A stretch of DNA of 64,000 nt from Bacteroidia bacterium (GTDB taxonomy: Bacteria > Bacteroidota > Bacteroidia > Flavobacteriales > Schleiferiaceae), in contig JAUHWL010000002.1 in NCBI GenBank assembly GCA_030424545.1, forward strand, positions 1 through 64,000, given 5' to 3'. Made by a program: the position numbers and the translations under genes. Below, piece by piece: positions 30,336-61,491 of the stretch. Each line of letters begins with the position of its first letter. Position 1 is the stretch's first letter. The notes beneath the pieces were generated by a model that saw only the letters and a list, made by a program, of their open reading frames with translations, was not told where the DNA came from and did no database searches.

Positions 30336-30349
30336 TTGATATTTATCAT
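30336..30349 (+). promoter_or_regulatory. FNR-type box upstream of the nos-locus uptake genes
   Basis: TTGATATTTATCAT matches TTGATnnnnATCAA at nine of ten positions. Its centre (30342.5) is 29.5 bp before the -7 element TACATTTG, which fits a class II activator site near -41.5. A weaker half-match (TTGATTCCAATATT) lies 50 bp further upstream. Confidence 0.6.
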
Positions 30350-30371
30350 ATATACAGAGAGCTTTTGAGGT

Positions 30372-30379
30372 TACATTTG
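30372..30379 (+). promoter_or_regulatory. -7 element, near-leaderless promoter
   Basis: TACATTTG matches TAnnTTTG and ends only 4 bp before the ATG at 30384, so the transcript would start at or very near the start codon. Confidence 0.5.
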
Positions 30380-30383
30380 TACT

Positions 30384-30749
30384 ATGTTTAAAGCACTAAA
30401 AATAGCTGTATTGTTACTCTTCTTGCAACCGCAAGTAAGCAACAGCGTTGTTTGGCTGCTTTATGAGTTTAACAAGGATTACATTACCCAAGAGCTTTGC
30501 GAGAATAAGGACAAACCGAAGTTAAAGTGCGAGGGGAAATGTCATTTAGCAAAGCAGCTCACAGAAGTATCTCCTACAGAATCTTCAGAGCCTGCTGAGG
30601 TTAATTATATTCCTCAAGTACAACTTTTTTATCAAGGGTTGCAGTCTTCTTTTTTCACCATTTATGATAAAAATGCAATAATACCTGAGCCAAACTCATC
30701 TTACAATTTTCAACCTTTTTATGAAATAGACGAACCACCACGTGCTTAA
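30384..30749 (+). CDS. Small exported cysteine-containing protein, first gene of the nos locus
   Basis: 121 residues: an N-terminal hydrophobic signal/anchor (4-15), then the conserved-looking segment LCENKDKPKLKCEGKCHLAKQL with three Cys and one His, then a variable region ending in EPPRA. Proteins of this layout occur in Flavobacteriia next to TonB-dependent receptors. The spaced Cys and His could bind metal, and the operon context (Met-rich lipoprotein, CxxxM TonB receptor, nosZ) makes copper the likely ligand; this is inference. Controlled by an FNR-type box. No alternative start is available. Confidence 0.65.
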   Translation: MFKALKIAVLLLFLQPQVSNSVVWLLYEFNKDYITQELCENKDKPKLKCEGKCHLAKQLTEVSPTESSEPAEVNYIPQVQLFYQGLQSSFFTIYDKNAIIPEPNSSYNFQPFYEIDEPPRA

Positions 30750-30803
30750 CACAATGTTATTTCACAGAGTTCAACAATTTATTATTTCATAAAAAAAATT
30801 AAA

Positions 30804-31640
30804 ATGAAAACTTATTTTTTAAAATCAGTTTTAGCAGTTTTTGCTATTACTGTACTAGCTGTTGGTTGTAAAAAAGAATCAACAACAAATACGCCTCCAA
30901 CGCCAACGAACCCTTATGCAGGATTGCATGAAATTGCAGAAATGCCCGCCATGGGAGCCGGTGTTACGGCCACCTTATATATGGGAGAAGAGCCTTTTGT
31001 AGGCTATAATAGAGTATATGTAGTACTCAAAGATTCCGTAACAGGAGAATTATTAATGAATGCAAAAATTACTTTTCAACCCATGATGGATATGGGCGCC
31101 ATGATGCATAGTGCACCTTGGGAAGAAGCCAAATGGACAGAATCTAGCAAAGCGTTTTTAGGATCATCAACCTTTATAATGCCATCTATGGCTGGTGTAT
31201 GGACCTTAAAAGTTATGGTTCAAAATCATAGTTCTGGCGCACAAGGTGCTGCAACTTTTCCAATTACAGTAATGGAAAAACAAGAGGCTATGCTTTATTC
31301 TTTTGTAAGTGCAACCGATAGCGCACGCGTTTTTGTTGCATTGGTACAGCCTTTAAATCCAACTGTTGGTTTAAACAATTTTGAATTGGCTGTATACAAA
31401 AGAAAAACCATGATGGAGTTTCCTCCTATGGACAATTTAATGATAGAAATTGACCCAGAAATGCCCACAATGGGCCATGGTTCTCCCAATAACGTAGATC
31501 CGGTATTTACAGAAATGGGGCATTATTTGGGTAAGGTAAACTTTACCATGACCGGCTATTGGAAGGTAAATGTAATGGTGAAAGATGATCAAAATGCCAT
31601 GATGAATGACAATGGTTATTTTGATATTACATTTCAATAA
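30804..31640 (+). CDS. Met-rich lipoprotein, probable copper-binding
   Basis: 278 residues with a lipoprotein signal (LAVGC, Cys22). The mature protein has several Met clusters (MPAMGAG, MMDMGAMMHS, PEMPTMGHG) with adjacent histidines, typical of periplasmic Cu(I)-handling proteins. The fold looks like two beta-sandwich halves. It lies between the Cys-containing small protein and the TonB receptor, so it probably receives or buffers copper taken up for NosZ. No named family recognised; role inferred from composition and position. Confidence 0.65.
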   Translation: MKTYFLKSVLAVFAITVLAVGCKKESTTNTPPTPTNPYAGLHEIAEMPAMGAGVTATLYMGEEPFVGYNRVYVVLKDSVTGELLMNAKITFQPMMDMGAMMHSAPWEEAKWTESSKAFLGSSTFIMPSMAGVWTLKVMVQNHSSGAQGAATFPITVMEKQEAMLYSFVSATDSARVFVALVQPLNPTVGLNNFELAVYKRKTMMEFPPMDNLMIEIDPEMPTMGHGSPNNVDPVFTEMGHYLGKVNFTMTGYWKVNVMVKDDQNAMMNDNGYFDITFQ

Positions 31641-31660
31641 GGTTTACTAAAACCGAATAA

Positions 31661-33661
31661 ATGAAAGTAGCGAAAACAATTTTGCTATGTTCTCTGGTTC
31701 AGGCACTCTATGCACAACCCGAGAGCTTAGATTCGTTAAAAAAACCAATTGAATTATCAGAAGTTGTAGTGCTGGATCAATCAGAAAAAGATCCAGCACT
31801 AGATTTCTATAAATCTTCTAGACAAATTGGTGTAGAAAACATAATGACGCGTATGCAAGGCATTAGCATGATAAGACGCGGCAATTACGCTCCTGATCTT
31901 GTGCGGCATGGTATGCGCAATGGTCAAGTAGGTATAACCATAGATGGTATGCAGGTGTTTGGGGCATGTACAGATAGAATGGACCCGGCAACCTCTTATG
32001 TTGAAACCAATAATTTAAAAAGCATTTCTGTATCTGATGATGATGAAAATGGGGGCTGCCATAGCGCTAATATTGCAGGAGGTGTAGATTTAAAAATTAA
32101 AGAACCTGTTTTTGGAAGCGGTTTTAGCGGTGCGGTTGGCGGAGGATTTACGCCTAACGGTAAGGGTTACAACGGTTTGTTAAGTACCACCTATGCCAAT
32201 AACAAGTGGGCAATAAATGTAAATTCTGTGTATCGAAAATTTGATAATTATACAGATGGCAATGGAAACGAAGTTTTGTATTCTCAGTATGAAAAAATAA
32301 ATTTTGGAACCAATTTTAGGTATAGGGTAAATAAAAATCAGATTGTTAGGTTAGATTTTATTTTGGATGATGCGTATAACATTGGCTACGCTGCATTGCC
32401 TATGGATGTAGCTTTTGCAAAGGCACGTATGTATGGCATAACCTACCATTGGTACACAAAAGGTTTTTTTAAGCAAATTACGGCTAAGGGATATTACAAT
32501 TATATAGACCACGCCATGGATGACAGCAAACGCCCCGATGTACCTATTAGGATGGATATGCCTGGCCAAAGCAAAACTTGGGGAGCTTTTGTAGAAGCGC
32601 AAACCAAATCTATCAAAACACATTCTTTGTATAGTAAATTGGAGGTGTTTAGCAATTTTAGACATGCTGATATGACGATGTACCCAAACACATCTTCAGA
32701 ACCAGATATGTACATGCTTACTTGGCCAGATGTGCAAAAAACATCTTCACTTTATTTTATAAAAGATGTGATAACCTTAAATGCGAAAAGTGGAATTGTT
32801 GTTTCTGGGAAATTGCAAATTGATTACAACCAAATTATTACAGAAGAGGGAAGAAAGTATATGGAACCTATGGGTTATGAAGGGCCATCTACATATGTTT
32901 TGCCCTCTTTAGATGTTGAGTTTAAACATGCGCTAAATAAAAACAATTCGTTCTTAATTCATGCGGGATATGCTTCTCGCGGTCCATCTACATCAGAACA
33001 ATATGGTTTTTATTTATTTAATGCGTATGATGGTTATGATTACATAGGTAAGCCAACAATTAAAGCAGAGCAGGCTTTAAAAGCAGATTTGAGTTACCAA
33101 TTGGCAACAAAAAAATGGTTGATAGAATCAAGCTTGTTTGGGTATAAAATACAAGATTACATCTTGGGTATTACGGCAACTGATTATGATGGAATGACCA
33201 TTGGCTCTAACGGGGTACGCGTATATGACAATGTTTCTTCAGCAACATTGTATGGAGCAGAATTGGCTGTAAGTGTAGAGATATATAAATGGTTAGATGC
33301 CATGGCCAAAGCAACTTTTACAAGAGGTATTTTAGAAGATAACAGCAATTTGCCGTTAATACCACCATTAAATGGTTTGTTTGCTTTTAAGGCTAACTAC
33401 AAAAGTTGGGAAGCTATGTTTGAAACAGAATTTGCATCATCACAGAATAAAATAAATGAGCAATATGGCGACCAAAAAACACCGGGTTATGTGGTAAATA
33501 ATTTACGAGCTATTAAAACTTTTAGGCTAAAATCGTCTGCTTTAAATGTAGAATTGGGTGTGGATAATATGTTTAATATCGCCTATCGAAATCACCTTGA
33601 TTGGGGCAATATTTTGCGTATCGGTCGTAATTTTTATGTCCAAGTAAAATACAGTTTTTAA
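31661..33661 (+). CDS. nosA: TonB-dependent receptor, OprC/NosA-like (copper)
   Basis: 666 residues: signal peptide (1-19), plug domain and a 22-strand barrel ending in VQVKYSF with a C-terminal aromatic. The plug contains GACTDRMDPATSY (Cys103, Met107), matching the CxxxM copper motif of OprC/NosA, outer-membrane proteins that import copper and are needed for NosZ maturation in Pseudomonas. Many additional Met residues line the sequence. No N-terminal carboxypeptidase-like domain. Upstream genes are the Met-rich lipoprotein and the Cys protein, and cytochrome c and nosZ follow. The symbol is by analogy. Confidence 0.8.
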   Translation: MKVAKTILLCSLVQALYAQPESLDSLKKPIELSEVVVLDQSEKDPALDFYKSSRQIGVENIMTRMQGISMIRRGNYAPDLVRHGMRNGQVGITIDGMQVFGACTDRMDPATSYVETNNLKSISVSDDDENGGCHSANIAGGVDLKIKEPVFGSGFSGAVGGGFTPNGKGYNGLLSTTYANNKWAINVNSVYRKFDNYTDGNGNEVLYSQYEKINFGTNFRYRVNKNQIVRLDFILDDAYNIGYAALPMDVAFAKARMYGITYHWYTKGFFKQITAKGYYNYIDHAMDDSKRPDVPIRMDMPGQSKTWGAFVEAQTKSIKTHSLYSKLEVFSNFRHADMTMYPNTSSEPDMYMLTWPDVQKTSSLYFIKDVITLNAKSGIVVSGKLQIDYNQIITEEGRKYMEPMGYEGPSTYVLPSLDVEFKHALNKNNSFLIHAGYASRGPSTSEQYGFYLFNAYDGYDYIGKPTIKAEQALKADLSYQLATKKWLIESSLFGYKIQDYILGITATDYDGMTIGSNGVRVYDNVSSATLYGAELAVSVEIYKWLDAMAKATFTRGILEDNSNLPLIPPLNGLFAFKANYKSWEAMFETEFASSQNKINEQYGDQKTPGYVVNNLRAIKTFRLKSSALNVELGVDNMFNIAYRNHLDWGNILRIGRNFYVQVKYSF

Positions 33662-33664
33662 AAC

Positions 33665-33678
33665 CTGATATACATCAA
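33665..33678 (+). promoter_or_regulatory. FNR-type box upstream of cytochrome c-nosZ
   Basis: CTGATATACATCAA matches TTGATnnnnATCAA at nine of ten positions. Its centre (33671.5) is 51.5 bp before the -7 element TAATTTTG, the same spacing as at the fasciclin gene, consistent with a class I site near -62. Confidence 0.6.
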
Positions 33679-33722
33679 CTTTTAACGTGAAGTAGTTCAT
33701 TTTTATCGAGAGTTTACGGGCG

Positions 33723-33730
33723 TAATTTTG
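33723..33730 (+). promoter_or_regulatory. -7 element for cytochrome c-nosZ
   Basis: TAATTTTG matches TAnnTTTG exactly, 57 bp before the cytochrome gene ATG at 33788. No good -33 element is seen, as expected of an activator-dependent promoter. Confidence 0.55.
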
Positions 33731-33787
33731 GCTAATAAATTAACGTCAACGCGCCATACACAAGCGCTTTTAAATTCGAGAAAAAAA

Positions 33788-34270
33788 ATGAAAATTAAAG
33801 TATTTTTTGCGTCAGCAATTGTTGGAAGTTTATTCCTTGTTTCTTGCGGTGGAGATGCGCCAAAAGAAGAAGTAAATCCAAAAGAAGAAACCGTTGTAGA
33901 AGAAACCGTTGTAGAAGATGCTGCAGAAGAAGGTGGCATGTCTAACAAAGGAGTTGGGCCCATAACTTCTATGGAAATTGCCGAGTCTATAGATGAGGCT
34001 CTTGCAGCTAAAGGTGAGGAGATTTTTACATCTAAATGTACTGCTTGCCATAAAATGGATGCTCGCTATGTTGGTCCTCCTTTACAAGGTATAACCAACA
34101 AAAGATCTCCAGAATGGATCATGAACATGATTTTGGCGCCAGAAAAGATGGTTGCAGAAGATCCGGATGCTAAGGCACTATTAGCAGAGTACTTAGCGCC
34201 AATGGCAAATCAAAACCTTACTGAGGATGAAGCTCGTGCTATTTTAGAGTACTTCCGCACGGAGGTTTAA
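33788..34270 (+). CDS. Lipoprotein c-type cytochrome, probable electron donor to NosZ
   Basis: 160 residues from the ATG at 33788, chosen because it gives a lipoprotein signal with lipobox LVSC (Cys20). An acidic linker (25-48) is followed by a class I cytochrome c domain with heme motif CTACHK (Cys84, Cys87, His88) and a probable axial Met139 in LAPMANQN. It precedes nosZ by 40 bp with no terminator. In clade II nos loci such cytochromes are thought to pass electrons from the quinol pool to NosZ; that role is inferred here. Confidence 0.85.
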   Translation: MKIKVFFASAIVGSLFLVSCGGDAPKEEVNPKEETVVEETVVEDAAEEGGMSNKGVGPITSMEIAESIDEALAAKGEEIFTSKCTACHKMDARYVGPPLQGITNKRSPEWIMNMILAPEKMVAEDPDAKALLAEYLAPMANQNLTEDEARAILEYFRTEV

Positions 34271-34310
34271 CAAATAACTTCGAATTAATTTCACTTAAAT
34301 ATCGCTTACA

Positions 34311-36293
34311 ATGAAAAAAGTATATCAATGGTTTTTAGCCATTATAGCAACAAGCGCTTTAATTACTGCCTGCGGAGATGGAGACAGTAAAAGCAAAAAG
34401 TCAACGGCAAGCAACTTTAATGATGCTGCCTCTAAAGTTTATGTAGCACCAGGAGAGCATGACGAGTTTTATGCCTTTATGTCTGGTGGATTTAGCGGCC
34501 AGTTAACCGTTTACGGTTTACCATCAGGACGTTTGTTTAGACGTATTCCAGTATTCTCGCAAGATGGTGAGAAAGGGTATGGTTACTCTGAAGAAAGTAA
34601 GCCATTGTTAGAAACATCTTACGGTTTTGTGCCTTGGGATGACTCTCACCACCCAGAATTATCACAAACAGATGGTACGCCAGATGGTCGTTGGATTTTT
34701 ATCAACGGTAATAACACGCCTCGCATTGCTCGTATTGATCTTACGACTTTCGAAACAGTAGAGATTTTAGAAATTCCCAACTCAGGTGGAAATCACTCAT
34801 CTCCATTTATTACAGAAAACTCTGAGTATTTGGTAGCCGGAACTCGTTTCTCTGTGCCAATTCCGCAAAAAGATGTGAGCATTGAAGATTACAAAAACAG
34901 CTTTCAAGGCAGCTTAACATTTGTTAGTGTTGAGAAAGAATCTGGAGATATGGACATCGCGTTCCAAATTTTGGTTCCTGGTTTTGATTATGACCTTGCC
35001 CATAGCGGGAAAGGGCCGTCTCATGGTTGGACATTCTTTACTTGCTACAATACTGAGCAGGCAAATACGATGTTGGAAGCCGAGGCTAGCCAAAACGATA
35101 AAGACTTTATTGCTGCTGTAAACTGGAAAAAAGCTGAAGAATATATCGCTGCGGGTAACTTTACAGAAATGCCTGCCGATTATCGCGATAACTCAGTAGA
35201 TCATTCTACGCAGATTGCAACGTCTAAAAAAATGACCTCAGTACGGGTTTTAAACCCAGCAGAATGCCCAGGTTTAATTTATTACCTACCAACACCAAAA
35301 TCTCCACACGGAGTTGATGTAGACCCAACAGGTGAATACATTGTAGGTGCAGGTAAACTATCTGCCGACTTAACAGTGCATAGCTTCTCAAACATGATGA
35401 AAGCCATTGATGCAAAAGATTTTGAAAAAGAAATTGATGGCATCCCAGTTTTAAAATACGAAAGTGTAGTTGCTGGTGTGGTTAAACAACCTGGTTTAGG
35501 CCCTCTTCATACTGAATTTGATGGTCAAGGAAACGCTTATACTTCTTTCTTTATCTCTTCTGAAGTTGTAAAGTGGAAAGTTGGTACATGGGAAGTTCTT
35601 GATCGTATTCCTACATATTACTCAATAGGTCACTTAATGATTCCTGGTGGAGACAGTAAAAACCCATGGGGTAAATACTTGGTTGCTCTAAATAAAATCA
35701 CCAAAGACCGTTATTTACCAACAGGTCCTGAGTTGGCACACAGTGCACAATTGATTGACATTTCTGGAGAGAAAATGCAAATGTTGTTAGACTTTCCTAC
35801 AGATGGTGAGCCACACTATGCACAAGGTATTGCTGCAGATGTTGTAGCGCCTAATAGCGTTAAAATTTTCCGCTTAGAAGATAACAAACACCCACGCGCT
35901 GTAAAAAGCGAATCTGAGGCACGCGTTGTTAGAGAGGCAGACGGAGTACACGTTTATATGAGTTCTATTAGAAGCCACTTTGCACCAGATAATATTGAAG
36001 GGATTAAACAAGGCGAAACAGTTTGGTTCCACGTAACCAACCTTGAGCAAGATTGGGATACTCCACACGGATTTGCGGTTATGGGTGCAAACAATGCAGA
36101 GTTGTTGATTATGCCTGGTGCTACAAGAACTTTAAAATGGGTGGCTAACAAAGTTGGTGTATATCCATTTTACTGTACAGACTTCTGTTCTGCACTACAC
36201 CAAGAGATGCAAGGTTACATGCGTGTAAGCCCTGCAAGTGCTAACGTACCTCTTACAGCCACTTTAGGCGGTCGCTCTTTTGATACGCAATAA
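34311..36293 (+). CDS. nosZ: Nitrous oxide reductase, clade II (Sec-dependent)
   Basis: 660 residues. Reduces N2O to N2 in the periplasm. The N-terminus is a lipoprotein-type Sec signal (LITAC, Cys21), not a Tat signal, as in clade II enzymes. A beta-propeller carries candidate CuZ histidines: His113/114 (DSHHPE), His162 (GGNHSS), His333 (SPHG), His400 (GPLHTEFDG), His441 and His502 (EPHYA). The C-terminal cupredoxin domain holds CuA ligands His586, Cys622, Cys626, His630 and Met633 in YCTDFCSALHQEM. An Asp stands where clade I enzymes have Trp between the two cysteines. Followed by a strong terminator. Confidence 0.96.
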   Translation: MKKVYQWFLAIIATSALITACGDGDSKSKKSTASNFNDAASKVYVAPGEHDEFYAFMSGGFSGQLTVYGLPSGRLFRRIPVFSQDGEKGYGYSEESKPLLETSYGFVPWDDSHHPELSQTDGTPDGRWIFINGNNTPRIARIDLTTFETVEILEIPNSGGNHSSPFITENSEYLVAGTRFSVPIPQKDVSIEDYKNSFQGSLTFVSVEKESGDMDIAFQILVPGFDYDLAHSGKGPSHGWTFFTCYNTEQANTMLEAEASQNDKDFIAAVNWKKAEEYIAAGNFTEMPADYRDNSVDHSTQIATSKKMTSVRVLNPAECPGLIYYLPTPKSPHGVDVDPTGEYIVGAGKLSADLTVHSFSNMMKAIDAKDFEKEIDGIPVLKYESVVAGVVKQPGLGPLHTEFDGQGNAYTSFFISSEVVKWKVGTWEVLDRIPTYYSIGHLMIPGGDSKNPWGKYLVALNKITKDRYLPTGPELAHSAQLIDISGEKMQMLLDFPTDGEPHYAQGIAADVVAPNSVKIFRLEDNKHPRAVKSESEARVVREADGVHVYMSSIRSHFAPDNIEGIKQGETVWFHVTNLEQDWDTPHGFAVMGANNAELLIMPGATRTLKWVANKVGVYPFYCTDFCSALHQEMQGYMRVSPASANVPLTATLGGRSFDTQ

Positions 36294-36335
36294 ACTTTCT
36301 CGGATTAGGCGTTATTCTTGAATGTCTAATTTATG

Positions 36336-36362
36336 CCCCTCCGCGAAAGCGGAGGGGTTTTT
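36336..36362 (+). terminator. Terminator after nosZ
   Basis: CCCCTCCGC-GAAA-GCGGAGGGG, perfect 9-bp stem with a GNRA-type tetraloop, followed by TTTTT. It lies between nosZ and the accessory genes, which have no clear promoter of their own, so partial readthrough may set lower expression of the maturation genes. Confidence 0.92.
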
Positions 36363-36385
36363 CTCACAACAAAAACACACCCAAA

Positions 36386-36964
36386 ATGGAAACTAGAAGT
36401 AGGTATCTTTTAATATTTTCTTCACTTATTTTATTTGTCGTTTATTTTTTTCCACTTTGGTGGATTTCTTTAGAGGCACCACAATATCCTGAGGGAATTA
36501 AAATGTACATCTGGGTAAACCAGATAACTGGAGAAAGTGAAAACACAATTCAGAACATCAATATCCTTAACCATTATATTGGCATGCAATATATAGAGCC
36601 AGACTCTATTCCTGAGCTCACGTATTTTCCGTGGGTAATTGCTGCCCTAATTGGTACGGGATTATTGGTGGCCTTGTTAAATAACAGTAAAATGGCGCTT
36701 GTTTGGGTTTCACTTTTAACCATTCTCTCCATTTTAGGCCTGTATGATTTCTATATGTGGGAGTATAATTATGGTCATAATTTAGACCCAAAAGCACCCA
36801 TTCAGGTAGAAGGACAAGCCTACCAACCACCATTTTTAGGTACCAAATGGTTGCTTAATTTTAAAGCAACATCATGGCCTCATTTAGGTGGTCTTGCTTT
36901 GTTTTTATCTGTTATTTTTGGAAACCTATTATGGTTTACAGAACTACGTAAGAAAAAAGCATGA
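36386..36964 (+). CDS. Membrane protein of Bacteroidota nos clusters
   Basis: 192 residues with about four membrane helices (8-27, 78-95, 101-118, 162-182) and an extracytoplasmic loop between helices 1 and 2 rich in aromatics. A Tyr/His/Trp-rich loop (YDFYMWEYNYGHNLDPKAP) follows helix 3. Genes of this type sit between nosZ and nosL in Bacteroidota nos loci. It may help electron transfer or copper handling in place of NosR, which is absent here; this is inference. Overlaps nosL by four bases. Confidence 0.65.
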   Translation: METRSRYLLIFSSLILFVVYFFPLWWISLEAPQYPEGIKMYIWVNQITGESENTIQNINILNHYIGMQYIEPDSIPELTYFPWVIAALIGTGLLVALLNNSKMALVWVSLLTILSILGLYDFYMWEYNYGHNLDPKAPIQVEGQAYQPPFLGTKWLLNFKATSWPHLGGLALFLSVIFGNLLWFTELRKKKA

Positions 36965-37422
36965 AATTAACTTTTTCGATTTTAATAATGTTTGCAATAA
37001 CTCTGGGCTGCAGTAATATGGAGCCTAGAGCTATTGAATATGGCAATGCCGAATGTGCGCATTGTAACATGATGGTAACCGAGCAAAAGTTTGGCGCGGA
37101 ACTAGTAACAGACAAAGGCCGCTATTATTTTTTTGATTCTGCTGAGTGCCTGTTTGAATACATGAGTGAGCAAGAAAATACAAACTACACGCATGTTTTA
37201 GTTACACCTTTTTTACAACCCAACACCTTGGTTGATGCAAAATCTAGTTTTTATTTAATAAGTAGCGGAATACCCAGCCCAATGGGTGCGTTTTTGTCTT
37301 CGTATGCAAGTCTAGAAGAAGCAAAAACACAGGCTACCATGCACGGTGGCGAAATTTATAACTACACTCAAATCTTAGAAAATTATCAAATTGGCGCAGG
37401 TGCTGCGCATCAGCCCGAATAA
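36961..37422 (+). CDS. nosL: NosL copper chaperone lipoprotein
   Basis: 153 residues with a lipoprotein signal (LGC, Cys17). NosL delivers Cu(I) for assembly of the NosZ copper centres. The family segment AECAHCNMMV (CxxCxMM) followed by FFDSAECLFEYM is present, containing the Cys/Met/His residues used in copper binding. Start overlaps the preceding membrane-protein gene, and nosD starts one base after the stop. Confidence 0.92.
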   Translation: MKLTFSILIMFAITLGCSNMEPRAIEYGNAECAHCNMMVTEQKFGAELVTDKGRYYFFDSAECLFEYMSEQENTNYTHVLVTPFLQPNTLVDAKSSFYLISSGIPSPMGAFLSSYASLEEAKTQATMHGGEIYNYTQILENYQIGAGAAHQPE

Positions 37423-37423
37423 A

Positions 37424-38653
37424 ATGCGTTACGTATTTGCTTTGCTTTTAATGCCTTTTTTAGCATGCGCCTCTGTTTTTAAAGTTGGTCAAAATCAACC
37501 GTATAAAACTATTCAAAGTGCTGTAGAGGCCGCTAGTACAAAAGATACTATTTTGGTGATGGCCGGAAAGTATAATGTGCGCAATTTTGTGCTTAGGAAA
37601 CAACTTACATTCATTGGCAAAAACTATCCTGTTATTACCGGACAGGGTGAAAAAATAATGGAAATACACGCAGATAGCACGTCTTTTTACGGACTTAAAT
37701 TTGTGGATGTTGCAACTTCGTATATCAATGATAATGCTGCGCTAAAGTTTGTGCGAACCATGGGGGGGCTTGTTCAAGACTGTAAATTTGACACTTGCTT
37801 TTTTGCCATTTATACGGCAAATTCTAATTTCATTACTATTAACAACAACAATGTGCAATCGCGCTACACCGATGAAGCTTCTAGCGGAAACGCAATACAT
37901 GCATGGTATTCTAATGATCTAACCATAACCAACAACAAGGTTTACGGACATAGAGATGGAATATATTTAGAATTTGTAGAAAACTCGGTTATTACAAACA
38001 ATTACAGCTATAACAATTTACGCTATGGATTGCATTTTATGTTTAGTCATAATAATGTGTATAGCAAAAATATATTTGAGGCAAATGGTGCGGGTTGTGC
38101 TGTGATGTATAGCAATAATGTAGCAATGCTTGACAATATTTTTAGAGAAAACTGGGGAGCTGCATCATATGGGTTGTTGTTAAAAGATATAAAAGATAGC
38201 AGGCTAGAGGGCAATTACTTTTATCACAACAGTGTTGCAATTCATACAGACAATTCCATGCGTTTGTTAATAAAATCTAATACGTTTGAGTTAAACGGTT
38301 GGGGATTAAGAATTATGGGGAGCTGTATGGATAACAATCTCACCCAAAACAATTTTATCGACAATACTTTTCAAGTAGCTACAAACTCTCAACGCAATTA
38401 CAATACGTATGAGGGAAATTATTGGAGTGATTATACAGGCTACGATTTAGACAGAGATGGTAGGGGAGATGTGCCACATAGGCCCGTAAGTTTGTATACC
38501 TATATGGTTACACAAAATGCGCCTACCGTAATATTAATGCGCAGTTTAATTATAGATTTATTAAACCTTGCAGAAAAGGTAATGCCAACCATTACCCCAA
38601 AAACCTTAACAGATGATGCCCCTTTGATGAAGCCATATCATGCTAGAGATTAA
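37424..38653 (+). CDS. nosD: NosD periplasmic copper-processing protein
   Basis: 409 residues from the ATG at 37424 (a frame-extending start at 37391 lies inside nosL). Signal peptide 1-17, then a right-handed parallel beta-helix of pectate-lyase type with many N-rich turns (NNKVYGHRDGIYLEF, NSVITNNYSYNN). NosD works with the NosFY ABC transporter in maturing the CuZ sulfide-bridged cluster. Its end overlaps nosF by 14 bp. Confidence 0.92.
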   Translation: MRYVFALLLMPFLACASVFKVGQNQPYKTIQSAVEAASTKDTILVMAGKYNVRNFVLRKQLTFIGKNYPVITGQGEKIMEIHADSTSFYGLKFVDVATSYINDNAALKFVRTMGGLVQDCKFDTCFFAIYTANSNFITINNNNVQSRYTDEASSGNAIHAWYSNDLTITNNKVYGHRDGIYLEFVENSVITNNYSYNNLRYGLHFMFSHNNVYSKNIFEANGAGCAVMYSNNVAMLDNIFRENWGAASYGLLLKDIKDSRLEGNYFYHNSVAIHTDNSMRLLIKSNTFELNGWGLRIMGSCMDNNLTQNNFIDNTFQVATNSQRNYNTYEGNYWSDYTGYDLDRDGRGDVPHRPVSLYTYMVTQNAPTVILMRSLIIDLLNLAEKVMPTITPKTLTDDAPLMKPYHARD

Positions 38654-39347
38654 AAGTTTAAATAAGAATTTTGGAAAAATGCACGCGCTCAAAAGTGTAG
38701 ACTTAACTTTTGAGAAAGGCGTAGTATATGCGTTATTAGGTCCAAACGGAAGTGGTAAAACAACGTTGTTAAAAAATATTCTAGGCTTGGTTAAACCATC
38801 GTCTGGAGATGTGCTAATAGATAACAAAACGGTTATAAACAATTCTGCAGCTAGAAACAAAGTGGGATACATGCCGCAATACGCACATTTTCCAGGAAAT
38901 GTTACGGCCAATGATGTGTTTAAAATGTTGCAAAAACTGCGTGGTGAATCTAAAAACCTAGAAGATTTAATAGAGCATTTTGGTATTCAAGATCAGGTTG
39001 GCAAAAAAATTAGTGCGCTATCAGGTGGAAATATGCAAAAAATTTCTGCCGTAGCTGCATTCATGTTCGATGCTGATATTTATATTTTAGATGAACCTTC
39101 GGTAGGATTAGACCCCTTGGCAAACTTTAAGTTAAAAGAATTAATTATAAAATACAGAGACCAAGGCAAAACGGTAATATTTTCATCGCATTTAATGGGA
39201 GAAGTACAAGAAGTGGCTAATGAAATCGTCTTTTTGTTTCAAGGCGAGTTAATTTTTAGAAAAGAGCCAAAAGTGCTAATTGAAGAAGAAAAAGCAAAAA
39301 ATTTGGAGCAAGCAATCGCTTCTATATTCCAACGGATGTATGTTTGA
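38640..39347 (+). CDS. nosF: NosF ABC transporter ATPase
   Basis: 235 residues with Walker A GPNGSGKTT (residues ~34-42), signature LSGGNMQK, Walker B DADIYILDEPSVGLDP, and the switch His in IFSSHLMGE. Supplies ATP hydrolysis to NosY and NosD in NosZ maturation. Overlaps both nosD and nosY, so the three are translationally coupled. Confidence 0.93.
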   Translation: MLEIKSLNKNFGKMHALKSVDLTFEKGVVYALLGPNGSGKTTLLKNILGLVKPSSGDVLIDNKTVINNSAARNKVGYMPQYAHFPGNVTANDVFKMLQKLRGESKNLEDLIEHFGIQDQVGKKISALSGGNMQKISAVAAFMFDADIYILDEPSVGLDPLANFKLKELIIKYRDQGKTVIFSSHLMGEVQEVANEIVFLFQGELIFRKEPKVLIEEEKAKNLEQAIASIFQRMYV

Positions 39348-40128
39348 GTTATTTAGATTATATAGAATTTCTATAAGCAATTTGTTACGCGCTAGATGGA
39401 TCTGGGCGTATTTAGGCTTTTTTCTCTTGGTGAGTTTTGGTTTGTTTCGCTACTCTCCAACATTAAGCGGTGCCATGGTAAGTTATATGAATGTTGTGGT
39501 GTTAATCATACCATTAATAGCCACCATCATCGGCTCCATGTATTATTACAATAATTATGATTTTTCTATGATGATGCTAACCCAGCCTATAAAACGCATA
39601 TCCGTTTTTTTAGGGCAGATATGGGCGTTAATTACCATGCTAAGTGTTTCGTTTTTAATAGGCACAATAGGTGGAGCTGCATATTATGGTTTTGATGAAA
39701 CTCTTTGGACACAACTAATTTTATTAATGGTATGCGGAGTATTTTTAAATGCCATTTTTACTTCTATTGCATATGTACTAGCTGTAAAATCTTCTGATAA
39801 AGTAAGAGGCATTGGTTTAGCCATGTTTATTTGGTTATTCATGGCCGTAGTTTACGATGGCTTGTTGCTTGCATATTTTTATTCTTTTGGACAATATCCA
39901 GTAGAAAATCATGCCATTGCATTTACCTTATTAAACCCCATAGATTTAAGCAGGGTAGTAGTCATGCTGCAAATGGATGTGTCTGCATTAATGGGTTATA
40001 CGGGTGCTGTATTCAAATCATTTTTTGGCAATATAGCAGGGCTATCCATCTCGCTTTTTGCGCTTATATTTTGGGTGCTCATCTTGCAGTTTTTTCTGTG
40101 GATTAGCCTTAGAAAGAAAGACTTTTAA
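39340..40128 (+). CDS. nosY: NosY ABC transporter permease
   Basis: 262 residues from the ATG at 39340, which gives MFELFRLYRISISNLLRARW, the usual NosY start; an upstream in-frame start lies inside nosF. Six hydrophobic helices spread over the protein. Partner of NosF; moves a still debated sulfur-containing substrate for CuZ assembly. Last gene of the nos accessory operon. Confidence 0.92.
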   Translation: MFELFRLYRISISNLLRARWIWAYLGFFLLVSFGLFRYSPTLSGAMVSYMNVVVLIIPLIATIIGSMYYYNNYDFSMMMLTQPIKRISVFLGQIWALITMLSVSFLIGTIGGAAYYGFDETLWTQLILLMVCGVFLNAIFTSIAYVLAVKSSDKVRGIGLAMFIWLFMAVVYDGLLLAYFYSFGQYPVENHAIAFTLLNPIDLSRVVVMLQMDVSALMGYTGAVFKSFFGNIAGLSISLFALIFWVLILQFFLWISLRKKDF

Positions 40129-40162
40129 GCAATTTGACATCCTTAAGTTTAGATTAAAAAAG

Positions 40163-40176
40163 TTGATTTTAATCAA
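40163..40176 (+). promoter_or_regulatory. Perfect FNR box upstream of the fasciclin-domain gene
   Basis: TTGATTTTAATCAA matches the FNR consensus TTGATnnnnATCAA at all ten positions. Its centre (40169.5) is 51.5 bp before TACTTTAG (40221-40228), a near-match to TAnnTTTG, giving a class I arrangement like that upstream of cytochrome c. Confidence 0.75.
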
Positions 40177-40255
40177 TGTTTAGATTGTAGTAATTCATTT
40201 ATCTAAACCAACCCCAGTATTACTTTAGATGAGTGAAATAACCTAAATAGAAATA

Positions 40256-40822
40256 ATGATGAATGTTAAAAAGTTAGTAATTGCACTTGGGGTAGTCATG
40301 TCGTTTTGGGCATGTTCTACTGAAGAAGTAGAAGAAACAGTTACGTCTACAGGAACAGAAGAACAAGATGCAGGCCCTGGTCAAAGTGCTGTGCAAGATG
40401 CAGAATCTGATCCAAATATAGTTGCCGTTGCTGTTGGTAGCGCAGACCACACCACGTTAGTAGCGGCAGTACAGGCAGCAGAATTGGTAGATGCTTTAGC
40501 TAACGCTGGACCGTTTACAGTTTTTGCTCCAACAAACGAGGCTTTTGCAGCCTTACCAGAAGGAACAGTAGATAACTTGTTGTTGCCAGAAAATAAAGAA
40601 ACGTTAAAACAAATTTTACTAGGCCATGTAATGACTTCTGCCGTAGCAGTTGATTATATGGGAGATGGTAAAAGTTATGCAATGGTAGATGAAAACTTTA
40701 CCAAATGGACGATTACGAGAAAAGGTGATGATGTATTTATAGGTGAAGCCAAAATTTTAGGCAGTGTGAAAGCTACGAATGGGTATGTGCATGTTATAGA
40801 TAAAGTACTGTTGCCCAAATAA
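40256..40822 (+). CDS. Fasciclin-domain lipoprotein
   Basis: 188 residues with a lipoprotein signal (SFWAC, Cys20), an acidic linker, and one fasciclin (FAS1) domain (about 50-188) marked by TVFAPTNEAFAALPEGTVDNLL and HVIDKVLLP. FAS1 domains usually mediate adhesion or binding. Its perfect FNR box and location between nosY and the Crp/Fnr gene suggest expression under N2O-reducing conditions; small FAS1 proteins are recurrent neighbours of nos genes in Bacteroidota. Molecular role unknown. Followed by a hairpin terminator. Confidence 0.88.
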   Translation: MMNVKKLVIALGVVMSFWACSTEEVEETVTSTGTEEQDAGPGQSAVQDAESDPNIVAVAVGSADHTTLVAAVQAAELVDALANAGPFTVFAPTNEAFAALPEGTVDNLLLPENKETLKQILLGHVMTSAVAVDYMGDGKSYAMVDENFTKWTITRKGDDVFIGEAKILGSVKATNGYVHVIDKVLLPK

Positions 40823-40846: not shown

Positions 40847-40886
40847 AATGGTCGTTTATTTTAATATAAACGGCCATTTTATTTTT
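40847..40886 (+). terminator. Terminator after the fasciclin-domain gene
   Basis: AATGGTCGTTTAT and ATAAACGGCCATT (one G-T pair) form a 13-bp stem with a 6-base loop, followed by TTATTTTT. It shows that the upstream extension of the next reading frame to 40848 is not coding. Confidence 0.85.
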
Positions 40887-40931
40887 ACAAGGATTATCAG
40901 CACTTTTGAGCATTATTTTTTTAGTAAAGAA

Positions 40932-41642
40932 ATGCCAAATAAAAAAGCTATAATTCCTTCTTGTGCAGACTGTAAATTATGTTCATTTACGGTACTAAAA
41001 TCTATTTCTACAGAAGATTTAGAGGAAGTTTCTAATACGAAAATAGATTTGTTTGTTGCTAAGGGCCAGAGAATATTTTCTGCTGGAAATAACCCAGGCG
41101 GGTTGTATGCTTTGTATCAGGGTAAAGTAAAAATACACAACGAACAAGAAAATGGCTCAGAACAATTAATTCAATTGTTGGCGCCAGGTGCAGTATTTGG
41201 TTATAAAGCACTTCTTTGCGAAGAGCCTTACTCTAACTCAGCAACTGCTATAGAAGATAGTTTGGTTTGTTTAATTTCTGGCGAGGTATTCAACAACATC
41301 TTATCAAAAAGTCATAAGGTTAAAAAGCAATTAATTTATACCCTAAGTGATGATTTAGAAAGTGCTCATAGCCGTATGGAATTAAGCAATAAACCCGCTA
41401 AAGACAGGGTTATACATGGGCTTTATTGTATTTTAAAAACCTACGGTGTTCATGAAGAAACGGGTGAGCTTAATGCCCAATTAACAAGAAAAGATTTGGC
41501 AAGTTTAGCCGGGCTTACGCTAGAGACAACCATTAGAACTTTAAATGCGCTTAAGGCTGAGGGCATTCTAGATTTTAAAGGAAAACGAATTAGTGTGTTT
41601 AACAAAGACAAATTTGTGAAAATTGCTACGTCAATTAAATAG
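40932..41642 (+). CDS. Crp/Fnr-family regulator with N-terminal Cys cluster
   Basis: 236 residues from the ATG at 40932; earlier in-frame starts fall in a terminator. The N-terminus carries CADCKLC (Cys11, 14, 17), followed by a cyclic-nucleotide-binding-like beta-roll (about 35-135) and a C-terminal winged helix with TRKDLASLAGLTLETTIRTLNALKAEG. Cys96 could be a fourth ligand. The arrangement resembles FNR-type oxygen or NO sensors, though the Cys spacing differs from E. coli FNR. It is the natural candidate to bind the three FNR boxes of the nos locus. Its 3' end overlaps convergent folC by eight bases. Confidence 0.85.
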   Translation: MPNKKAIIPSCADCKLCSFTVLKSISTEDLEEVSNTKIDLFVAKGQRIFSAGNNPGGLYALYQGKVKIHNEQENGSEQLIQLLAPGAVFGYKALLCEEPYSNSATAIEDSLVCLISGEVFNNILSKSHKVKKQLIYTLSDDLESAHSRMELSNKPAKDRVIHGLYCILKTYGVHEETGELNAQLTRKDLASLAGLTLETTIRTLNALKAEGILDFKGKRISVFNKDKFVKIATSIK

Positions 41643-60162: not shown

Positions 60163-61491
60163 TTAAAATTGGTGCACTTTTAAAGACCCCAACTGTATAA
60201 AATGGTGCACCACAGAATTTACATACGGGTGATGTACAATGGGCGTAAGCAATTTTTTTATGCGTGTTTTACTTTCTAAAACACTTTCTAGCTCATAAAA
60301 AAAGTAACCTTTTACCATGTAGTTTTCTATGAGTAGCGCACTTTTTTCGGTGGTTGTTCTGCCTTTGCCAATGGCCAAAAAGTTCGGTTGTTTAAACAGA
60401 GAATGCGTTAAACTTTCTAGGGGCATGGTTTGCCTTGCAGGTTTATAGGTATATCGCTTTAAAAAAGGTTCTAAATATCTCTGATCCTTTTCCATCAAGA
60501 TTATTTCTGTATCTACTTTATTTTCTACCAAGCGCTCTAGCACAAATTGATAAGCATCATCTTTTTCTTTAAAGTAAATAGCCGGTGGCCTCTGCTTTAC
60601 TTGGGCCACACGTAAAAAGGTTATGTTTTCGCCATCGGTTTCGGCAAAAATGCCAAAGTGTAAAAACTTGGTATTTATGCCTTTGTTAAACTTGGGTTTT
60701 AACTTGCGCAAGGCATCAAACGCTTTAATATGGGCAATGGCTTCGTTGCCGGTTTCTTCTATATGTATGTTGCTAGATTCTTGCTGAATATTTACCGCTT
60801 CTTGGTTGGTAGCTAAAAAGTGGCGATTGATGCTGTTTTGTAAATCGTTGCTTTTACCCACATAAATTACTTTGCCACGTGCGTTGTGTAAAAAATAAAC
60901 GCCCGTAACATTTTTTAGTCCGCGTACAATTTCTCTAAATGGGTGCTGGTTTTCGCTTTCTTCTACCGAGCTAGATAATTTGCTAATTGTTTTGCCAGTA
61001 TCTTTTTCAAGTAAAATTTTTAAAAGCTCAACGGTGGCGCGTGCATCGCCATCTGCGCGATGCCGATGTGTATTGCTAATGCCCAACTCTTTGCAAACAG
61101 ATTCTAACCCGTAGGTTTTTAATCCGGGAATTAATTCTTTGGTCAGGTCGATGGTGTCTAAGGTTTTGCGGTGAAAATCAAAACCCAAACGCTCAAATTC
61201 TAGTTGCACCACGCGGTAATCAAACTTTACGTTGTGCGCTACAAACACGGCATCTTCGGTAATTTTTACAATGCGTTTGGCAATCTCATAAAATTTAGGA
61301 GAACGCAATACCATGTTTTGGGTGATGCCTGTAATCTTGCTTACATATTGTTGGATGGGCGCTTCCGGATTTACCAGCGTGATAAACTGATCAATCACTT
61401 CTTTGCCGTTAAACAAAAACACAGCAATTTCCATGATGTGTTCTTGGTTAAACTTGCCCCCTGTGGTTTCTATGTCTATTACAGCATACAT
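60163..61491 (-). CDS. DEDDh exonuclease fused to a GIY-YIG domain
   Basis: 442 residues. N-terminal DNA polymerase III epsilon-like exonuclease (1-~165) with ExoI DIETTGG, ExoII and the HRADGDA ExoIII motif. Next comes a GIY-YIG nuclease domain (about 192-275) with GVYFLHNARGKVIYVGKS, then a C-terminal region of ~150 residues without assignment. The middle part resembles the nuclease domain of UvrC, and this fused form occurs across Bacteroidota. Probable role in DNA repair or processing; exact substrate unknown. Confidence 0.9.
   Translation of the reverse strand: MYAVIDIETTGGKFNQEHIMEIAVFLFNGKEVIDQFITLVNPEAPIQQYVSKITGITQNMVLRSPKFYEIAKRIVKITEDAVFVAHNVKFDYRVVQLEFERLGFDFHRKTLDTIDLTKELIPGLKTYGLESVCKELGISNTHRHRADGDARATVELLKILLEKDTGKTISKLSSSVEESENQHPFREIVRGLKNVTGVYFLHNARGKVIYVGKSNDLQNSINRHFLATNQEAVNIQQESSNIHIEETGNEAIAHIKAFDALRKLKPKFNKGINTKFLHFGIFAETDGENITFLRVAQVKQRPPAIYFKEKDDAYQFVLERLVENKVDTEIILMEKDQRYLEPFLKRYTYKPARQTMPLESLTHSLFKQPNFLAIGKGRTTTEKSALLIENYMVKGYFFYELESVLESKTRIKKLLTPIVHHPYVNSVVHHFIQLGSLKVHQF

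Follow-up and report, generated by a model that had tools for sequence, protein, structure and literature searches.

In the nos locus of a Bacteroidia bacterium of the family Schleiferiaceae (GenBank assembly GCA_030424545.1), FNR-type boxes precede the genes for copper uptake, the cytochrome c-nosZ group and a fasciclin-domain lipoprotein. It is likely that an FNR-type low-oxygen activator uses these boxes as its operators, with a single class II site at the copper promoter (A) and a 22-bp tandem pair at the nosZ promoter (B) and perhaps at the fasciclin promoter (C). The analysis covered a stretch of 64,000 nucleotides, positions 1 to 64,000 of contig JAUHWL010000002.1, which we call the window. 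The initial annotation had placed the centres of the boxes at 30336, 33665 and 40163 at 29.5, 51.5 and 51.5 bp from the first T of a TAnnTTTG-type -7 element, and these distances can be read directly from the DNA. Because TAnnTTTG occupies positions -12 to -5 in F. psychrophilum (available text of PMC9723704), the three box centres would lie at -41.5, -63.5 and -63.5.

The 64 kb contain four exact copies of the inverted repeat TGATN4ATCA: the three boxes and one at 60548, which lies within an open reading frame (ORF). A matrix built from 50 boxes of other species' nos promoters, with the window excluded, puts 30336 in first, 33665 in second and 40163 in sixth place among all window positions. 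The chance of finding TAnnTTTG at one named position, estimated from shuffled intergenic DNA of the window, is 0.0007 for an exact match and 0.011 if up to one mismatch is allowed. With respect to its predicted start, the assignment of 30336 as a class II site is well supported: its inverted repeat ranks first, its position follows from the -7 element, and its gap of 23 to that element is the peak in both nos loci and near genomes.

To define the rule in relatives, we collected NosZ homologues from the best 80 of 584 named loci and from 13 other genomes among 60 near ones. The working set comprised 93 nos loci (the window, 12 near-genome loci and 80 named loci), or 91 after two duplicates were removed; three weak matches from one genome (L018-L020) were excluded. 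A de novo search of the 93 loci for gapped palindromes enriched between genes returned ATATGAYN4RTCATAT, not the E. coli letters. Its core, ATGAYN4RTCAT, is found 128 times in intergenic and 60 times in coding DNA, both strands counted. Downstream of this core, exact TAnnTTTG elements number 42 at gap 23 and no more than four at any other gap (both strands, two duplicate loci included), while a reversed TAnnTTTG control peaked at no gap. In 41/91 loci the first gene of the cytochrome-fasciclin-nosZ group has a strong box (>12 bits) and a -7 element at gap 22-24 in front of it; in 32 of these the -7 element is exact and at gap 23. The E. coli-type repeat TTGATN4ATCAA was rejected as a regulon marker: 16 of its 19 perfect copies in this genome lie within ORFs of at least 100 amino acids, and of its 16 strand-counts in the 80 named nos loci just 4 are intergenic.

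The boxes at 33665 and 40163 had been read as class I sites near -62. A reading as plain class I sites is not supported for 33665, where a second box with a full TGAN6TCA core occupies -41.5 (33688), and appears less apt for 40163, where a weak box may do so (40186); a 22-bp tandem is a rule across the class. The label is best replaced by a predicted tandem pair at nosZ and, with less confidence, at the fasciclin gene. Both proximal boxes, B2 and C2, lie 22 bp downstream of B1 and C1 and at gap 23 to the -7 element, and the relation of two helical turns (22 bp) noted between the two box classes is retained. Promoter B has two FNR boxes on the same helix face, one of them at -41.5, as expected of a tandem; promoter C shows this arrangement weakly. 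Among TGAN6TCA core pairs within 80 bp in the nos loci, an offset of 22 occurs in 9 of 20 intergenic pairs (seven loci including the window) versus 1 of 29 coding pairs. The loci with a tandem before the nos group itself are the window, L029, L030, L037, L041, L042 and L071, the latter six named Saprospiraceae or Lewinellaceae. L024 has a 22-bp pair elsewhere in the locus, and L048 has a pair at 23.

Could B1 and C1 nevertheless be single class I sites followed by neutral sequence? They are the only strong boxes there, both at gap 45, and C2 is barely a box; B2, however, has a full core at the one position predicted by the class-wide rule (chance 0.0003 per named place). The gap-45 readings of the nos loci (-7 element with up to one mismatch) are divided, 8/19 having no second box within one mismatch and 11 having a second core within one mismatch at the expected place, for which the chance is ~0.0065 each. 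We regard the class I explanation as improbable. The recurrence of the box-to-promoter spacing within this genome was borne out for one class and not for the other. From TGATN4ATCA to TAnnTTTG, five of eight matches over gaps 10-40 fall at 22-24 (one of the five, on contig C5, within an ORF), whereas gap 45 accounts for only 1/5 matches over gaps 41-71, that one being the window's own. In the nos loci gap 45 is a minor peak of 2 exact and 8 one-mismatch elements. Gap 45 was rejected as an independent class on the own-genome count and on the 11 of 19 readings that resolve into tandems, although 8 do not.

The tandem arrangement extends well beyond nos. In a first class-wide scan, the proximal box was fixed before the -7 element and the upstream box left free over 31 offsets in 295 genomes. 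Matches occurred in 130 genomes, and the reversed control has zero in the table; among the 150 matches listed (70 genomes), 120 were at offset 22 and 18 at offset 23. The offset-22 rows among the matches listed come from 60 genomes, in which 28 of the 30 family labels are represented. In a second scan, the pair was fixed and the -7 element left free over 31 gaps in 149 genomes, 50 of which had matches; 77 of the 92 rows were at gap 23, and the reversed control gave 1. We inspected 30 class-wide sites. Five lie before ccoN (four exceed the family cut-off, L132, L142, L146 and L148, and L149 falls slightly short of it), two before ccoS (L138, L152) and one before nosZ (L155, the same site as L041). 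Two cytochromes c, a tryptophanase, a universal stress protein and several genes without known family were also found, and at 4 of the 30 sites no ORF was found. Comparison of coordinates places tandem pairs directly next to FNR-like genes in several genomes. Searches of the open-licence literature returned no description of FNR boxes paired at 22 bp in Bacteroidota. As a separate observation, ORFs of ~352 amino acids beside tandem sites in L129 and L147 join a Crp/Fnr-like part to an N-terminus that looks receiver-like by eye.

The two halves of the tandem are unequal. The upstream box averages 11.6 bits and the proximal box 4.9 bits (29 sites). The upstream box is the stronger one in 22 of 34 pairs (Wilcoxon p 0.0025), although the pattern of the first scan fixed one extra upstream-box base, favouring the upstream box (p 0.011 without the fixed columns). 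This asymmetry suggests that a strong distal site recruits a second dimer to a weak proximal site. Single -41.5 boxes before nos are strong, unlike the proximal boxes of tandems. On the boxes, their spacings and their conservation we base a model in which binding, start sites, oxygen signal and cooperativity are predicted. A single dimer bound at -41.5 of the copper-uptake promoter would touch RNA polymerase in class II fashion, and the transcript would begin with its start codon. The cytochrome c-nosZ promoter, and perhaps that of the fasciclin gene, would carry two adjacent dimers on the same face, 22 bp apart at -63.5 and -41.5. The strong upstream site would be filled first and would aid occupancy of the weak promoter-proximal site, the latter doing the activating. 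Such a tandem promoter would fire only when active regulator is abundant.

Several observations weigh against this assignment. By the matrix the proximal boxes are weak (B2 -0.7, C2 -13.4), and C2 is short of one core base. The -7 element of promoter C has one mismatch, and the -7 elements were chosen after the fact. Only 7/91 nos loci have a tandem before the nos group, and 34/91 yielded no candidate promoter in the scan for a box plus a -7 element. None of the three promoters has a good -33 TTTG element; the corresponding bases read TATA, TTTT and TTTA. The same variant of the promoter C element, TACTTTAG, is present in the nos promoters of L009 and L012.

The initial annotation had placed copper uptake, cytochrome c-nosZ and the fasciclin protein in a local regulon, with the Crp/Fnr gene in the locus. 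Common control of the three is supported, more weakly for the fasciclin gene, which is a regular nos-cluster member (at most 2.5 kb from nosZ in 45/91 loci), and the Crp/Fnr gene is present at 40848-41642. The regulon is not confined to nos, because ccoNO, encoding a cbb3 oxidase on another contig, carries the same tandem. This site (C31:256537, gap 24), ~195 bases before the ATG of ccoNO, and the nos site are the two matches of the second scan in this genome. The first scan returned nos and a site on contig C15 near two biosynthetic-looking genes, which may be a chance match. The proposed local regulon is better described as a low-oxygen regulon that also includes ccoNO, its functional steps being predicted.

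Either of two FNR homologues may act on the window boxes. The linked regulator has a Crp fold and a Crp-type helix-turn-helix (PF00027 and PF13545 over cut-off). Its four cysteines, three N-terminal ones and the counterpart of C122, align with those of solved FNR (9qlt, 5cvr), at a spacing of CxxCxxC instead of CxxCx5C. The FNR recognition helix reads ExxSR; in the linked regulator it is ETTIR, with E and R present and S replaced by I. Its score of 97.8 bits, far below the NCBIfam Fnr cut-off of 228, counts against an FNR identity. The best matches in the 60 near genomes are at most 35% identical, and no close counterpart was seen among them. A Crp/Fnr homologue lies near nos in 4/92 other loci (5/93 including the window); none was found in the examined flanks of the remaining 88/92, of which 12 (L006-L017) have flanks of only ~1.5 kb. 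With FNR-like genes in only 5/93 loci, the linked regulator was rejected as a general regulator of nos. Genome G021 has such a gene ~10 kb from nosZ. The second homologue, on another contig (C31:156654-157343), has better conserved relatives in near genomes (254-357 bits for 16/16 of L160-L175). It is oriented divergently from a gene for a heavy-metal P-type ATPase, and the DNA that separates the two contains a canonical box. Its counterpart in G021 has the same P-type ATPase neighbour, followed by ccoNO, with nosZ ~10 kb away.

It is conceivable, if rather unlikely, that nos is specifically regulated by the divergent linked protein instead of the conserved FNR, through operator letters of its own (YTGAT, not ATGAY). 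T or C occupies 5/6 outer half-site positions in the window versus A in 87/100 single class II half-sites of relatives (Fisher p 0.0005), and the absence of a close counterpart in near genomes points the same way. Yet because A is found in only 24/58 upstream half-sites of class-wide tandem boxes, the window letters are no departure from these (p 0.39; 0.22 versus all tandem half-sites). Moreover, the sample consists of three boxes only, E and R of the recognition helix are identical in both homologues, and ccoNO in this genome carries the same tandem. As proof of a local regulator the operator letters were rejected, being significant against single class II boxes and not against tandem boxes.

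A different Crp-type signal, such as nitric oxide sensed as by DNR, is a still weaker contender and quite improbable. Although nos genes of other bacteria are under DNR with the same box type (available text of PMC1274295), the four cysteines of the linked regulator align with those of FNR, the class-wide tandem set includes cbb3 oxidase genes, and nitric oxide control in relatives fits a separate, Rrf2-type palindrome. In 18/91 nos loci this palindrome, A[AG]GAYN6RTC[CT]T, occupies a -61 slot, its centre lying 18-20 bp upstream of that of the FNR box. Overall it has 57 intergenic sites in 43 nos loci versus 17 in nearly ninefold as much coding DNA. Examples of the intergenic sites are L049:3823, L055:7765 and L090:18117, with 54 others in nos loci. 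Because it also adjoins Rrf2-family, copper nitrite reductase, ric and norC-like genes, the palindrome fits an NsrR-like nitric oxide regulator and is likely the operator of an NsrR-like Rrf2 protein, as predicted from its neighbours. Rrf2 homologues above 75 bits, a threshold chosen after the list was seen, are present in 13/14 nosZ-bearing versus 4/46 other near genomes (p 6e-9), and in 7 of the 13 the Rrf2 gene lies within ~6 kb of nosZ. Rrf2 genes in clade II nos scaffolds have been reported before (available text of PMC6264515). In this genome, another contig (L202:8606-10182, G000:C24) encodes an Rrf2 protein, a globin-sized protein and ric, with the near-match palindrome CGGATAAATTTGTCTT before the Rrf2 gene. 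The palindrome was not found at the nos promoters of the window, its one match in the whole window (41675) lying within an ORF. A strict joint pattern of Rrf2 palindrome, FNR box and -7 element was found in 0/295 genomes; an overly strict pattern or sparse sampling of the lineage may account for this.

These findings lead us to propose, tentatively and at somewhat less than even confidence, a dedicated low-oxygen promoter code of the Bacteroidia. An FNR pair with starts exactly 22 bp apart, strong at -63.5 and weak at -41.5, would precede TAnnTTTG, and its touching dimers would form a cooperative switch. At nos, the -61 slot would be interchangeable, being occupied by a second FNR dimer or by an Rrf2/NsrR-like nitric oxide regulator depending on lineage. 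The nos locus of this lineage would have lost the Rrf2 slot and taken the FNR pair, and may be adapting to the newly linked FNR copy.

Class II and tandem-bound FNR promoters of E. coli, as Barnard, Green and Busby are said to have described in 2003, have a palindrome at -41.5, which may be joined by another FNR site further upstream. The promoters described here share the FNR-type palindrome at -41.5 and the possible upstream site; they differ in the constant distance of the second site, 22 bp upstream across many families, next to TAnnTTTG, and in the tendency of the upstream box to be the stronger one. A further comparison is with Nitrosophilus labii, which belongs to another phylum. In that organism, which has clade II nosZ, denitrification genes are under Crp/Fnr control and FNR-like boxes lie near nos, exact boxes starting 48-49 bases before the predicted napA, norE and nosB starts; the available text describes no fixed tandem (PMC11539149). 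Control of nos by DNR/NnrR likewise involves an FNR-like box upstream of nosZ (available text of PMC1274295), whereas here the -7 element is another one, the FNR homologue bears cysteines and the geometry is tandem. The flavobacterial sigma-A promoter has the same TAnnTTTG -7 element, and leaderless mRNAs exist there (5.5%); the available part of that paper makes no mention of Fnr or Crp (PMC9723704). A fixed promoter grammar would make the low-oxygen regulon (cbb3 oxidase, nos and copper supply) predictable in many genomes by a simple pattern, and the tandem offers a testable geometry for cooperative activation beside a promoter type that differs from E. coli's. Clade II nosZ of Bacteroidota constitutes a large sink of nitrous oxide. 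Outside the Proteobacteria, the regulation of nosZ is little known (available text of PMC6264515).

Table 1. Predicted promoter elements and genes of the nos locus, in window coordinates.
Feature	Position	Strand	Remarks
FNR-type box A	30336..30349	+	TTGATATTTATCAT; class II, centre -41.5; matrix rank 1 in window
-7 element of promoter A	30372..30379	+	TACATTTG; predicted start 30384 = A of ATG (leaderless)
Small protein, first of copper-uptake group	30384..30749	+	CxxxC and signal-like start; no Pfam match
YtkA-like lipoprotein	30804..31640	+	–
TonB-dependent receptor	31661..33661	+	nearest NCBIfam model TonB-copper, far under its cut-off
FNR-type box B1	33665..33678	+	CTGATATACATCAA; upstream half of tandem, centre -63.5; matrix rank 2
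FNR-type box B2	33688..33699	+	TGAAGTAGTTCA; weak, class II position (-41.5), 22 bp from B1, full TGAN6TCA core
-7 element of promoter B	33723..33730	+	TAATTTTG; predicted start 33735
Cytochrome c lipoprotein	33788..34270	+	–
nosZ, Sec-dependent (clade II) nitrous oxide reductase	34311..36293	+	TIGR04246, 947 bits
Remaining nos group: membrane protein, nosL, nosD, nosF-like, nosY-like	36386..40128	+	nosF-like and nosY-like named by position and order
FNR-type box C1	40163..40176	+	TTGATTTTAATCAA; centre -63.5; matrix rank 6
Possible degenerate box C2	40186..40197	+	TGTAGTAATTCA; -41.5, 5/6 core bases, doubtful
-7 element of promoter C	40221..40228	+	TACTTTAG; 1 mismatch to TAnnTTTG; predicted start 40233
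Fasciclin-domain lipoprotein	40256..40822	+	–
Crp/Fnr-family regulator, divergent FNR homologue	40848..41642	+	likely start 40932

Homologues of the first gene of the copper-uptake group adjoin YtkA- and TonB-type genes in some other nos loci. The A of the ATG is itself the predicted start in the window as well as in L058 and L066, and in L076 the start lies one base further on; the copper-uptake message is therefore likely to be leaderless here. A point on the other side is that the start coincides with the ATG in only 3/9 homologues of this gene, a fourth being one base off; in the remaining 5/9 the predicted start was not on the ATG or no -7 element was found.

Two further sites were noted. 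A perfect intergenic TTGATTTCAATCAA with CAAATTTG at gap 23 lies elsewhere in this genome (L110, G000:C22 ~21988), with a cNMP-domain gene nearby, and is a possible further class II site. In the cytochrome-nosZ promoter of L006 (G024), two copies of the palindrome GGATAAnATTGTC flank the FNR box, one upstream of it and one between the box and the -7 element.

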